From: Globomyces pollinis-pini
Lineage: Eukaryota > Chytridiomycota > Chytridiomycetes > Rhizophydiales > Globomycetaceae
Length of the DNA stretch: 14,649 nt
Assembly: GCA_025399215.1 (NCBI GenBank)
Contig: MU621479.1
Coordinates: forward strand, 1 to 14,649
Direction of reading: 5' to 3'
In this document: positions 3,372 through 13,311 of the stretch, piece by piece
Position numbering within the stretch: the stretch's first letter is position 1
Layout: each line of letters opens with the position of its first letter
Program-made: the position numbers and the translations under genes
The notes under the pieces: model-generated
The model's database searches: none
Seen by the model: only the letters and a program-made list of their open reading frames with translations
Told to the model about the DNA's origin: nothing

Positions 3372-4936
3372 TCAAAAGAGTGCGTCAGCATTAGAAACTT
3401 TGAAATTGAATAACTCTAATCCCCGGATAGCATCTACTTTATCTGACTCACCCCTTGATTGAAACATATTTATCATGAGTTCATTGATAAAATCATCAAC
3501 GGGAATGACTGAATATATAGATTCAGCAGCTGTCGCATGAAAATCATTCTTTACTGCTTTTCTTGTATGATAGGTCATAATTGAATAATAAGCTTGTGTG
3601 GTGGGATATAAATGATCCGTTTCAGATACAAATTTACTGGCAGTATCTTGAATACTCTGGTTTTTCTTGGCAGACACTTTCAGCCTTATATAAATAATAA
3701 ATAAATATTACCAGAGTCGGTACATATCAGTAGAACACTTCATTGGTATAGCTATAGAATCTAGGCGACAGTTGTTTGCTGTCTGTAGTGCATACTTCCA
3801 ATCAGCCGTTTTGATAGCGTAAGATATAAACGGAAGGTATGAGTGAATTGTTGGTTTTAAATCATGGTTTTTCACTTCTTGCAGATACCTTATATTAGCT
3901 GATATTTATGGAGTACCTGGAATGTTATTCAAATTCACTAGATACCGTTGGGCAACATGCGGCTGAAGGGTTAGCGTAGAAGTATATTACCAAGTTATGA
4001 TCACAAAACTCAGCTATAAATATGTTATACGCAACGGCTAAAGGTGAAATGTCGAAGGAGGAGTTGTCAGACAAACATTTTTTAAATATCTTATGGGAAT
4101 CAGGATGTGATTTTATCTCTTGTAGTTGTTTTGTGGCTAAATCTATCTTTCCAGCTTTGATGAAACTAGTCAGTCGCGATATCAACATGTGAATATCAAT
4201 CTCTTTTGAGTATTTACACTTGATCAATTTAAAGATTTCTTGAGAATGTTTGTACCTTCCTTTCCGAATAGCGTGATTCATAAGTATAGTTAATGATACT
4301 TTATCAATTCTCTTTAGCTTTGCTATAGAATAAATTTTTGAATCTTTTACCCATAGTTGCTATGAACTGATCAGCTACTTCTGTTTGTTCCTGATTTTTT
4401 AAGAGACTCGAGAGAAAAGTATTGAGTATTCGTTGATCTTTTCTGTTTGGTGTGCTCTTTGAGAGAATTTGATCAATATTAGAACGAATCAGTGTGTCAT
4501 CTTTTAGTGTATGGTGATATTTAGCCAATAGAATTAACAATTGATGATCCGGTTGTACATTTAACGTCAACATTTTAGTTAAATATAAATCAACATCGGA
4601 CATTCTATCCAAGGCAATCAATCTACCCACTATAGAAGTGAAAAGTGACTGAGATGGTGTATAACCTAATTCCAAGTATGAATTTGTCTGACTTAATGCC
4701 GAATCAATATCTACTGTACATATAATTTTTTCCCATAATGAAGGATCATGAGAATATAAGGTAGAATATTTGTTGTATACATTAGTGACTGATGGATTTC
4801 TTTCTACAATTAGTTTTGATATTCTTTGGTATAAAACTGATTTTTCCTGGCTTGAAATCCTTCTTTTAAAGATTTCCTTTACAAGTTTTTTTGATGAATT
4901 CCAATTGAATTTTGAAAGTGTCAATCGTGTGAACAT
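3372..4936 (-). CDS. PPR-like organellar RNA-binding protein, five exons
   Basis: Five minus-strand exons (4351-4936, 3991-4322, 3946-3962, 3712-3888, 3372-3684) join into 474 residues. Introns are 4323-4350 (28 nt), 3963-3990 (28 nt), 3889-3945 (57 nt) and 3685-3711 (27 nt). The protein is a string of helical hairpins of pentatricopeptide type. In the region rebuilt by splicing, the Tyr of AYNIFIAEFC and the Tyr of HSYLPFISYA are exactly 35 residues apart, the PPR period, and KNHDLKPTIHSY ends a typical motif. The N terminus (MFTRLTLSKFNWNSSKKLVK) is rich in K/R/S without acidic residues, as in a mitochondrial presequence. PPR proteins of fungi usually act on mitochondrial RNA; that role is inferred. 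The third exon is only 17 nt. I cannot assign an orthologue. Without the splices the frame breaks after about 210 residues. Confidence 0.75.
3889..3945 (-). other. 57-nt intron made of two abutting GT-AG introns (29 + 28 nt)
   Basis: Read on the minus strand, 3945-3917 begins GTATCTAG and ends ATTCCAG (29 nt), and 3916-3889 begins GTACTCC and ends ATATAAG (28 nt). Each half has branch-point-like sequence (GAATAAC; GCTAAT) near its 3' end. Removing all 57 nt gives an in-frame, correctly spaced PPR motif. Removing either half alone does not. A 7-bp direct repeat, GGTATCT on the minus strand, flanks the whole 57-nt segment (3940-3946 and 3883-3889). Confidence 0.65.
3946..3962 (-). other. 17-nt microexon of the PPR-like gene
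   Basis: The exon between the second and third introns encodes P-H-V-A-Q plus two bases of an Arg codon. It is needed to keep the 35-residue PPR spacing between the flanking exons. Confidence 0.65.
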
Positions 4937-5144
4937 GAAAACTTTTTCAAGTCAAAACTATGCAACTATCTCAATGATACGAAAACGAATCCAATTCTAA
5001 CACCCAATTTCAAGCTTAAACACTAATTGATGTCTAAATAGTCTTTAGAATAGGAATACCATATCCAAGTGAAGAACTTGATTTGAAATTACAATGAATT
5101 GGCACTTAGAAAATTAATACAACAGCACTACTTTCGAAATTCGA

Positions 5145-7849: not shown

Positions 7850-8888
7850 TTAGCATAGAGAGAATAGGACAGATGCAACAGCCAACCATACAGAGCTATG
7901 TCGTAAAGCGGAACCTTGTGGGGTTGTTTTGGAACCATTACTACCACCTTTATCATTACTCTTTGCAGTTTTCTCCTTTTTATCTGGTGTATTCAATGGC
8001 CATTTTGGCACAATATTATCTTTTTCGTCATAACATTCAATCATAACTGATTCATAATTGGCAACCAATTCTTGCTTAGATCCCCAGTCAATGGCACCTC
8101 CTGCCCAATTGCGTGTTCCTTCAGATGAACCCGGATATCCACCATCCCATAATGCGAACTGCACTAAAGATGGTGTTGTTGGAAACCATTTGGGACCAAG
8201 AGGATTCAATTTTGAAAATGACTTTTCCTTCATCAAGGTACGGACAACTTTTCCATCTATAGACCAAGTGATAGAATCGTGCTTCCAATCAATTACATAT
8301 GTATGCATTTTGGAGGTATCATCAATTGGGTGTTCGCCTCCATGAATTCCAATCTCTTTCTCAATGTCGGTTTTTCCTTTAGAATGATAGAAAACATTGG
8401 ACTGTGGTACGTTTGGTTTACCTAATCATTCATAAATACCGTATTCTTACCAGTTATTTCCCAATCAATTTCATCTTCTACATCCGACATTGTTATAAAA
8501 CTGGTGATGACTCCAGGATTACCTAATATTATGACATAAACCATCAATTACCTGGACAGCTAAACAATGCAGTGATACGACCATATAGGACATATCGAGA
8601 CGATGATAGTTTAACCCCTGAAGCAGACTTTTTATCATCTGGATTCTTTTTCAGTTGTAATGTGAATCCACCATCCTTGAAAGGTTGAATATTCTTAGCA
8701 CCATATTCTACTAAAAAATCGTTTGTGGAAATATCCACATCCTTTGGAACAGTTGTTAATGCCTTTCCACCCATATCCCACATTCGTTTAAAGTCATATT
8801 TTAAGGGACCAGATAGACAACTGCCCGTGACATTTGCTTGACCATTTACTGTTGATAGAAGCAAAATTGATAGCCAAGCGTTTATCAT
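7850..8888 (-). CDS. GPI-anchored Crh-type GH16 glycosidase/transglycosylase, copy with two introns
   Basis: This is a paralogue of the gene at 5160-6275, in the same orientation. Exons are 8552-8888, 8451-8522 and 7850-8421. Introns are 8523-8551 and 8422-8450, each 29 nt and phase 1. The product has 326 residues: signal peptide MINAWLSILLLSTVNGQ, GH16 domain with DEIDWE at E130/D132/E134 (same numbering as the other copy), HTYVIDWK, FALWDGG and WAGGAIDWG. A shorter Ser/Lys-rich linker and a C-terminal hydrophobic tail (SVWLAVASVLFSLC) suit a GPI signal. Splicing joins ITALFSCPG to NPGVITSFIT and DEIDWEITG to KPNVPQSNVF, matching the paralogue throughout. Without splicing the frame ends soon after exon 1. 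The shorter linker may place this enzyme differently in the wall; that is inference. A TATA-like box precedes the gene. Confidence 0.9.
8422..8450 (-). other. 29-nt intron 2 of GH16 copy 2
   Basis: GT-AG intron, phase 1, placed just after the catalytic motif. GGTAA occurs across both junctions on the minus strand (8447-8451 and 8418-8422). The intronless paralogue is continuous here. Confidence 0.8.
8523..8551 (-). other. 29-nt intron 1 of GH16 copy 2
   Basis: GT-AG intron, phase 1. The sequence AGGTAAT occurs across both splice junctions on the minus strand (8547-8553 and 8518-8524), a 7-bp direct repeat 29 bp apart. The intronless paralogue is continuous here. Confidence 0.8.
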
Positions 8889-9859: not shown

Positions 9860-10276
9860 AGAGATATTTGGATTTCATGGTGGGATTGCATTGTAGTAGT
9901 TGTGGAAAGATTTCAGGAGACGGTAACAAGTGCCCTGGAATTGGACAACAGACAATTGGTTTGATTGATACAATCCATACTGAGGAGAGATTGAAAGTCG
10001 CAGTTTGTGCAACACGAGTTGGTGGAGGAGGTTTGAGTCAAGTAATGATAGTTGGTATAGATATGGCGAGTCAGGAAGTAGGACATCTCAATGATGTTTT
10101 GAAATAGTACTAAATACTTTTGTTGAGGATGATTACTGTTGGTTGATAATTAGTTATAGTATCAAAGGATCATCGTCACGTTTGATCTAATATGATGATG
10201 GGAGTACAGTAAGGTTACACGAAGGTGAGAAATGTAGAGCCAGTATAGGGGGTGTAAAAATGGAAAATTTCGCATA

Positions 10277-10347
10277 GCAATGATGGTGTAGAGGCAACAT
10301 GCACGCCTTCCAAGCGTGCGTCCGGGGTTCGATTCCCCGTCATTGCA
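10277..10347 (+). tRNA. tRNA-Gly(TCC), left copy
   Basis: The 71-nt gene folds as a full cloverleaf. The acceptor stem pairs GCAATGA with TCATTGC, discriminator A. The anticodon stem CACGC/GCGTG encloses loop CTTCCAA with anticodon TCC. The T arm is CGGGG-TTCGATT-CCCCG. No intron. Its internal B box is GGTTCGATTCC. It ends 5 nt before tRNA-Glu with no T-run between, so the two are probably co-transcribed by Pol III. Confidence 0.96.
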
Positions 10348-10352
10348 GTTGA

Positions 10353-10424
10353 TCCGAATTAGTCCAGTGGTTAGGATTCCTCGCTTTCACCGAGGCGGCC
10401 CGGGTTCGATTCCCGGATTCGGAG
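10353..10424 (+). tRNA. tRNA-Glu(TTC), left copy
   Basis: The 72-nt gene has acceptor stem TCCGAAT/ATTCGGA, discriminator G, anticodon stem CCTCG/CGAGG with loop CTTTCAC (anticodon TTC), and T arm CCGGG-TTCGATT-CCCGG. No intron. A TTTTT tract follows 4 nt after the gene. It is identical to the copy at 12672-12743. Confidence 0.96.
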
Positions 10425-10428
10425 ATTC

Positions 10429-10433
10429 TTTTT
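10429..10433 (+). terminator. Pol III T-run after the left tRNA pair
   Basis: TTTTT lies 4 nt after tRNA-Glu. It is the first T-run of this length after tRNA-Gly, which supports a dicistronic transcript. Confidence 0.7.
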
Positions 10434-10445
10434 GTTTTCCTCTTT

Positions 10446-10461
10446 CTTTGACCAGTCAAAG
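10446..10461. repeat. 16-bp hairpin sequence, left arm
   Basis: CTTTGACCAGTCAAAG is a 7-bp perfect inverted repeat around CA. It is kept unchanged in the right arm at 12635-12650. Confidence 0.6.
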
Positions 10462-10657
10462 GGACTAATAGATAGACTGGCTAACCTCATAGTAATATGA
10501 TTCCTTGTTTGTGAATCGCTATCGATTGAAGCATAATCGTGTAATTGATCAAGTAGACTCTCAAATTTAAGACCACCACCTTATATGGCAAGGTTATGAC
10601 ATGATTGTGAGTATCCTAAACACTAACTGTTTGAATTAGTATATTGAAAATAATGCT

Positions 10658-12539: not shown

Positions 12540-12634
12540 CTACTTGAACAGTTATACTAACATCGATATATCTTAGATATCGATTCACAAACAAGGAATT
12601 ATATACTATGAGGTTAGCCAGTATATATCAGTCC

Positions 12635-12650
12635 CTTTGACTGGTCAAAG
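12635..12650. repeat. 16-bp hairpin sequence, right arm
   Basis: Right-arm copy of the 7-bp inverted repeat around CA seen at 10446-10461, just past the tRNA terminator. Confidence 0.6.
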
Positions 12651-12662
12651 AAAGAGGAAAAC

Positions 12663-12667
12663 AAAAA
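12663..12667 (-). terminator. Pol III T-run after the right tRNA pair
   Basis: TTTTT on the minus strand lies 4 nt past tRNA-Glu, the mirror of the left-arm terminator. Confidence 0.7.
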
Positions 12668-12671
12668 GAAT

Positions 12672-12743
12672 CTCCGAATCCGGGAATCGAACCCGGGCCG
12701 CCTCGGTGAAAGCGAGGAATCCTAACCACTGGACTAATTCGGA
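12672..12743 (-). tRNA. tRNA-Glu(TTC), right copy
   Basis: Identical over all 72 nt to the left-arm tRNA-Glu, with the same stems and anticodon TTC, transcribed on the minus strand. Confidence 0.96.
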
Positions 12744-12748
12744 TCAAC

Positions 12749-12819
12749 TGCAATGACGGGGAATCGAACCCCGGACGCACGCTTGGAAGGCGTGCATGTT
12801 GCCTCTACACCATCATTGC
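12749..12819 (-). tRNA. tRNA-Gly(TCC), right copy
   Basis: Identical over all 71 nt to the left-arm tRNA-Gly. It lies 5 nt upstream of tRNA-Glu in transcription order. The two pairs are convergent: each is transcribed toward the RRM gene. Confidence 0.96.
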
Positions 12820-13311
12820 TGTACAAAATTTTCCATTTTTACACCCCTATACTGGCTTTCCATTTCTCATCGTGTAACCTTACTGTACTCCCATCATCAT
12901 ATTAGATCAAACGTGACGATGATCCTACTAATTATCAACCAACAGTAATCATCCTCGACAAAAGTATTTGTTACTATTTCAAAACATCATTGAGATGTCC
13001 TACTTCCTGACTCGCCATATCTATACCAACTATCATTACTTGACTCAAACCTCCTCCACCAACTCGTGTTGCACAAACTGCGACTTTCAATCACTCCTCA
13101 GCATGCATTGTATCAATCAACCCATTAGTCTGTTACCCAATTTTAGGCCACACGTTATCATCTCCTGAAATCTTTCCACTACTACAATGCAATCCCACCA
13201 TGAATCCAAATATCTCTTTATAGTCTATTTGATATCCTAAAATATTCCTCTTCCTCCGTCCCTGAAGAAGTTCACACTAGTTTCAAATACTCAGCAAACA
13301 AACAATCTTCT

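Follow-up and report, generated by a model that had tools for sequence, protein, structure and literature searches.

Apparent tandem arrays of ultrashort introns in the genome of the chytrid Globomyces pollinis-pini

A 57-nucleotide gap in a PPR-like gene

The window analysed here, a stretch of 14,649 nucleotides of Globomyces pollinis-pini DNA, contains a PPR-like gene on the minus strand (3372–4936, all its features being given on that strand) that is interrupted by a gap of 57 nt. The question raised by this gap is whether it is a single intron or two introns with no exon between them. The gap (3889–3945) consists of GTATCTAGTGAATTTGAATAACATTCCAG (29 nt, 3917–3945), directly followed by GTACTCCATAAATATCAGCTAATATAAG (28 nt, 3889–3916). 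The first unit runs from GTATCT to TTCCAG and the second from GTACTC to CTAATATAAG, ending in ATATAAG; both were assigned from the reading frame, the gene model described below and splice-site percentiles. The two units meet at an AG|GT junction (3915–3918), a putative zero-length exon, in which the acceptor of unit 1 abuts the donor of unit 2, an assignment based on the sequence and on the statistics of the class. This exact 29+28-nt split had been pointed out in an initial annotation and is present as described, as are the GT, the branch-like site and the AG that had been placed in each half. The branch-like element of unit 2 is, by sequence, CTAAT, while that of unit 1 is ATAAC, which is not the YTRAY motif as counted genome-wide.

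Removal of all introns yields an open frame of 474 amino acids in five exons, with the array counted as one gap; the gene is supported by its reading frame, the gene model, a match to the Pfam family PPR_2 and a homologue. The other introns are 28, 28 and 27 nt long (4323–4350, 3963–3990 and 3685–3711, respectively, from frame and gene model), and an exon of 17 nt (3946–3962, from gene model and sequence) is located between the second of these and the array. Retention of the first half of the gap, the second half or both cuts the protein to 326, 318 or 324 amino acids, respectively. Relative to 287 well-flanked single introns of the genome, the donor and acceptor of unit 1 lie at the 56th and 40th percentiles and those of unit 2 at the 47th and 13th. 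With GT-AG ends, a branch-like element near the 3' end, a length typical of the genome and splice sites within the normal range, both units have the features of U2-type introns.

The only match reported for the spliced protein (E-values up to 0.001, 4221 candidates) is HDV02_001160 (P0001) of Globomyces sp. JEL0801, with 97% identity across 56% of the query. It crosses the array junction uninterrupted (AQRYLQELKNHD), although this protein is itself an annotator's gene model. The gap holds intron-sized GT-AG units that abut at AG|GT and are absent from the coding sequence inferred from the protein. Of practical importance for annotation, the start of the relative's public model lies 209 residues too late when set against the window gene, and YRLW, four residues at the last intron, is missing from it; public annotation may therefore handle ultrashort introns wrongly.

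The genome assembly comprises 18.5 Mb in 459 contigs, of which the window is contig 388. A gene model was built that took its coding statistics, its splice-site matrices and its length weights from sample DNA of the same genome, totalling 267,154 usable bases including the window; one sequence without any readable base was excluded. A single-strand codon-usage model with flat intron lengths was discarded, as it merged genes. At the window gap, the self-trained model chose 29+28 nt with a zero-length exon unprompted, the window DNA being in its training set and its length weights being learned. With these weights, two introns score +0.62, one 57-nt intron −4.79 and an 18-nt intron −4.87, while with flat length weights one 57-nt intron scores −3.18, the 18-nt intron −3.26 and two introns −5.54.

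We assign a probability of about 0.8 to the reading of the window gap as a two-unit tandem array, in which complete U2-type introns of about 28 nt, each spliceable by itself, are arranged head to tail around a dual-use AG|GT, and which belongs to a genome-wide class with 2 to 10 units, from which excision would proceed unit by unit. A competing reading, which we regard as unlikely, is that of one ordinary 57-nt intron removed in a single step, with its middle AG|GT there by chance, the longer arrays then being long introns with internal repeats. The preference of the flat length weights for a single intron favours it, as does the fact that 456 of 20,000 shuffles of the window 57-mer (2.3%) split the same way, so the window case by itself is only suggestive and the genome-wide counts carry the case.

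Much the weakest reading, that only 18 nt (3899–3916) are spliced and the remainder of the gap codes for 13 additional residues, is consistent with the open frame, with an acceptor at the 28th percentile of the single introns and with its flat-weight score above that of two introns, but is made very improbable by its learned-length score below that of two introns, by the rarity of introns no longer than 22 nt (1 of 636 under learned lengths and 9 of 519 under flat ones), by the lack of the insert in the relative's protein and by the PPR_2 match, which falls to 14.9 bits (residues 12–31) from 23.8 bits (residues 12–50) with the full gap removed, both scores being below the Pfam cut-off of 30. 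The set of 287 single introns is restricted to 22–37 nt by construction and is silent on whether shorter ones occur. The initial annotation had held that only the removal of both halves restores the PPR repeat; the PPR_2 match is indeed best with full removal, but the frame is not decisive, since removal of the 18 nt also leaves it open.

Intron lengths and spacing of AG|GT motifs

Of 364 well-flanked introns in the model with learned lengths, 339 are 20–37 nt long, none are 38–54 nt long and 25 are scattered between 55 and 198 nt. The lengths peak at 24–34 nt with flat and learned weights alike, and the two halves of the gap are of the genome's usual intron size, as had been claimed. With flat weights and less DNA, the peak is the same, 9 of 196 introns are 38–54 nt long and the long introns form a scattered tail; the empty range of 38–54 nt is therefore partly a product of the learned length weights, which sharpen the peak. 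The length is divisible by three in 104 of the 287 single introns.

Zero-length exons make up 24 of the 557 internal exons called by the learned-length model, some of them in runs of three, four or five introns. When a flat-length model was used that forbids zero-length exons, 3 of 61 long gaps tile, compared with 0.36 expected from shuffles; many of these long gaps, from those looked at, were judged to reflect exons that had been skipped or genes that had been joined, and the count is not relied on. Ten introns of 38–130 nt were called; two of them, 74 and 75 nt long (L014 index 5042-5116 and L006 index 8131-8206, minus strand, from the gene model), look like real single introns and lie in what we take to be an aconitase-like and an NDUFA9-like gene. 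Because single introns of 74–75 nt seem to exist, the spliceosome would not be strictly limited to 37 nt or less and removal of the 57 nt in one step is possible, a point in favour of the single-intron reading.

In the sample alone, AGGTA pairs peak at a spacing of 24–35 nt (20, compared with 1–11 in the other bins of 12), and AGGTA triples have no peak (3, compared with 3 at 36–48 nt); counts were therefore made over the whole genome, where they are independent of gene models. There, 374 of the 420 TAGGTA pairs at unit lengths of 12–42 nt are at 24–36 nt, corresponding to 28.8 per unit length inside this range and 2.6 outside, while pairs of the reversed motif have no preference (254 of 576 at 24–36 nt). 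About 23 of the 374 pairs may be single introns flanked by an exon that ends in TAG and one that starts with GTA, an estimate based on the 9 and 8 of 287 single introns with such flanks. AGGTA triples number 265 at units of 24–34 nt and 11 at 38–48 nt (71 and 58, respectively, for the reversed motif), although these counts overlap inside long arrays, about 100 listed triples corresponding to some 68 places when counted by hand.

The spans of 49–61 nt between TAGGTA motifs, 129 in all, have about the length of the window gap. Among the 100 spans listed, 81 are divided at intron spacing by an inner AG|GT, which in 22 of them is not part of a TAGGTA; when the spans are shuffled, 3.3 are split in this way on average and 9 at most. 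Nine other anagrams of AGGT give counts of 0–6 in the same 100 spans, and the two contained in TAGGTA itself, GGTA and TAGG, give 68 and 70. If these spans were removed in one step, idle inner sites should decay, yet only 19 of the 100 are without one, and these are less AT-rich (mean AT 0.627, compared with 0.727, with 6 of the 19 reaching 0.68). By our estimate, their number is also below the roughly 26 predicted from the background rate.

The branch-like elements likewise count against one-step removal, since inner units carry them about as often as single introns do. Of the 81 first units, 42 have a YTRAY motif close to the 3' end, as do 50 of the 81 second units, compared with 166 of the 287 single introns and about 23–24% of shuffles. 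In the arrays of the sample, it is present in 8 of 18 units before an inner junction but in only 3 of 11 last units, the latter figure speaking against the array reading. With these genome-wide spacing counts, two abutting ultrashort introns without an exon between them, as initially suggested, are the best-supported reading of the window gap. Three explanations had been offered for the arrangement, of which one exceptional long intron appears the least likely; the other two, a recursive AG|GT site and an intron inserted at the edge of another, amount to the same arrangement described twice.

Arrays in other genes and their possible origin

Sixteen arrays were called by the gene model, of which 5 were set aside as false or doubtful and 11, including that of the window, were kept; a ten-unit array (L030) was added afterwards. 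The longest arrays can be placed against known protein structures. In a CLK-type kinase gene, five units occupy 138 nt (C1:20692-20829), and the protein aligns with the structure of CLK2 without a gap at the junction. The ten units of the PHYHD1-like dioxygenase gene (285 nt, L030:786-1070) likewise lie where the alignment with the PHYHD1 structure is gap-free. Alignments with solved structures are also without a gap at the junctions of the two-unit arrays in the genes for MSH2, Derlin-1 and IST1, and Pfam matches span the junctions in a SEN1-like gene (SEN1_N; four units, 124 nt, C1:42529-42652), a DOP1-like gene (Dopey_N; three units) and a KAP-like gene (KAP; two units). For Cluap1, where the array was also kept, the Pfam match begins downstream of the junction and so does not span it, and a Pfam search with the L003 phosphatase-like gene, another kept array, gave no match. 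The kept arrays further include the second one of L012 (24+36 nt), called by the gene model.

Among the arrays set aside, that of L019 is clearly false, its second unit being coding; we take this unit to be the sequence NGGYGAILA ahead of DEMGLGKT in a RAD54-like helicase. The others are L020 115+33, L016 25+181+27, C1 32+29 and L016 27+31. Extrapolation from the 10 kept arrays outside the window, found in about 252 kb, would give some 700 arrays genome-wide, a very rough figure.

Chance tiling was estimated for three of these gaps by shuffling: it occurs in 0 of 20,000 shuffles of the CLK-type array, in none for the PHYHD1-like array and in 2 for the SEN1-like array. The one-step reading would thus have to accommodate five- and ten-unit gaps that do not tile by chance, and leaves the intactness of every junction unexplained.

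The ten-unit array, with zero-length exons throughout, has units of 29, 28, 28, 28, 28, 27, 29, 29, 28 and 31 nt, in that order. Units 2 and 3 are identical, units 4 and 5 are similar and others are unrelated. In the split spans described above, 24 of the 81 pairs of adjacent units exceed 95% of random pairs in similarity, and 16 exceed 99%; some of the 81 pairs share an array. The upstream exon ends in AG for 9 of 12 arrays and 82 of 287 single introns, and the downstream exon starts with GT for 6 of 12 and 34 of 287, respectively. Such flanks fit duplication mediated by AGGT, although the excess may be partly a selection bias, because the donor weights of the model themselves favour AG.

On these grounds it is probable, if less so than the reading of the window gap itself, that complete ultrashort introns stand in tandem arrays of up to ten units in hundreds of genes, the arrays having grown through exact tandem duplications bounded by AGGT and being serially spliced at dual-use AG|GT sites, a multiplication of introns that would be silent in the mRNA. 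Each unit would be cut out in a separate splicing reaction, with no fixed order; once one unit has left, the end of the exon would meet the next GT and become its donor context. Because there is no base between the units, every order of removal would yield the same mRNA. The arrays would arise mainly by exact tandem duplication of an intron flanked by AG|GT, which would not lengthen the mRNA. Older arrays, perhaps that of the window too, may have diverged while their junctions persisted.

Alternatively, the units may be dispersed, introner-like elements inserted at splice sites instead of local duplicates, which we consider unlikely. Near-identical units adjoin within the same array, and the DNA of the ten-unit array matches only itself in a search of the genome that skips very common words. 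The window pair is more ambiguous. Its two units resemble each other no more than random units do, 51% of random pairs being at least as alike, so that a comparison of the units gives no sign of duplication; this dissimilarity suits insertion as well as old duplication. The array is also flanked by two copies of GGTATCT, a direct repeat of 7 bp, one where unit 1 begins (3940–3946) and one where the next exon begins (3883–3889), an arrangement that resembles a target-site duplication; repeats of at least 6 bp are found at the flanks of only 2 of the 287 single introns. Searched in the genome as part of a gene-long DNA query, the window units gave one match. Given the dissimilar units and the flanking repeat, the window pair may stem either from old duplication or from insertion.

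Relation to known splicing arrangements

The arrays share elements with several known systems. In the recursive splicing of Drosophila, introns are removed stepwise through ratchet points, at which a juxtaposed acceptor and donor, AG|GT, form an apparent zero-nucleotide exon (PMC8605326). The window gap has the same juxtaposed AG|GT. However, according to the accessible parts of that work, ratchet points subdivide long introns and need a cryptic exon at the site (PMC8605326), while the window gap is only 57 nt long, with no long intron; every unit forms an entire intron of some 28 nt, and elsewhere in the genome up to ten follow in a row. In fungal stwintrons, as described in the text available to us, a complex intervening sequence is removed by consecutive U2 reactions, an internal intron interrupting a splice element of the external one (PMC7138796, PMC5639578, PMC8469720); in Lipomyces starkeyi one such sequence can be removed in one reaction or in two (same papers). 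In the window gap, by contrast, no splice element is interrupted, each unit having an intact donor and acceptor of its own with AG|GT at the junction, and, unlike in stwintrons, any order of removal would work for the chytrid arrays.

In human UBC, dual-specific AG|GT sites stand in a tandem array; they can be used as donor or acceptor and are tied to tandem repeats (PMC10809524). As far as the excerpts of that paper go, its repeats are coding monomers, variably included, whereas the chytrid units are non-coding introns with no coding base between them. Genome-wide ultrashort introns of about 25 bp are known from the ciliates Paramecium and Nyctotherus, where those with lengths divisible by three are under-represented in most length ranges (PMC5014332). 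They are similar in size to the chytrid introns, in which there is no such shortage, and abutting arrays go unmentioned in the available portions of that report. Introners also multiply introns within a genome, by inserting copies into many genes (PMC9860276, consulted in part); the copying visible in the chytrid differs in being in place and in tandem. A literature search, judged mostly from listings and with thin coverage of subscription journals, found no recognised description of complete spliceosomal introns arrayed in tandem around zero-length exons.

By what route genomes acquire introns has long been an open question. In this genome, an intron can apparently be duplicated exactly in place with the protein unchanged and, if RNA confirms this, introns can multiply in place by simple tandem duplication. 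The process can be watched, because identical, similar and unrecognisable units coexist in one genome. The arrays also pose a mechanical problem, as the spliceosome would have to remove up to ten 28-nt introns without an exon between them; judging from the size of the spliceosome, neighbouring complexes would be unable to sit side by side on such arrays.

Elsewhere in the window, an inverted duplication is present (9896–10474 and 12622–13185), its arms measuring 259 nt (93%) and 226 nt (98%) and lying about 2–3 kb apart. The arms carry mirrored pairs of tRNA-Gly(TCC) and tRNA-Glu(TTC) genes.
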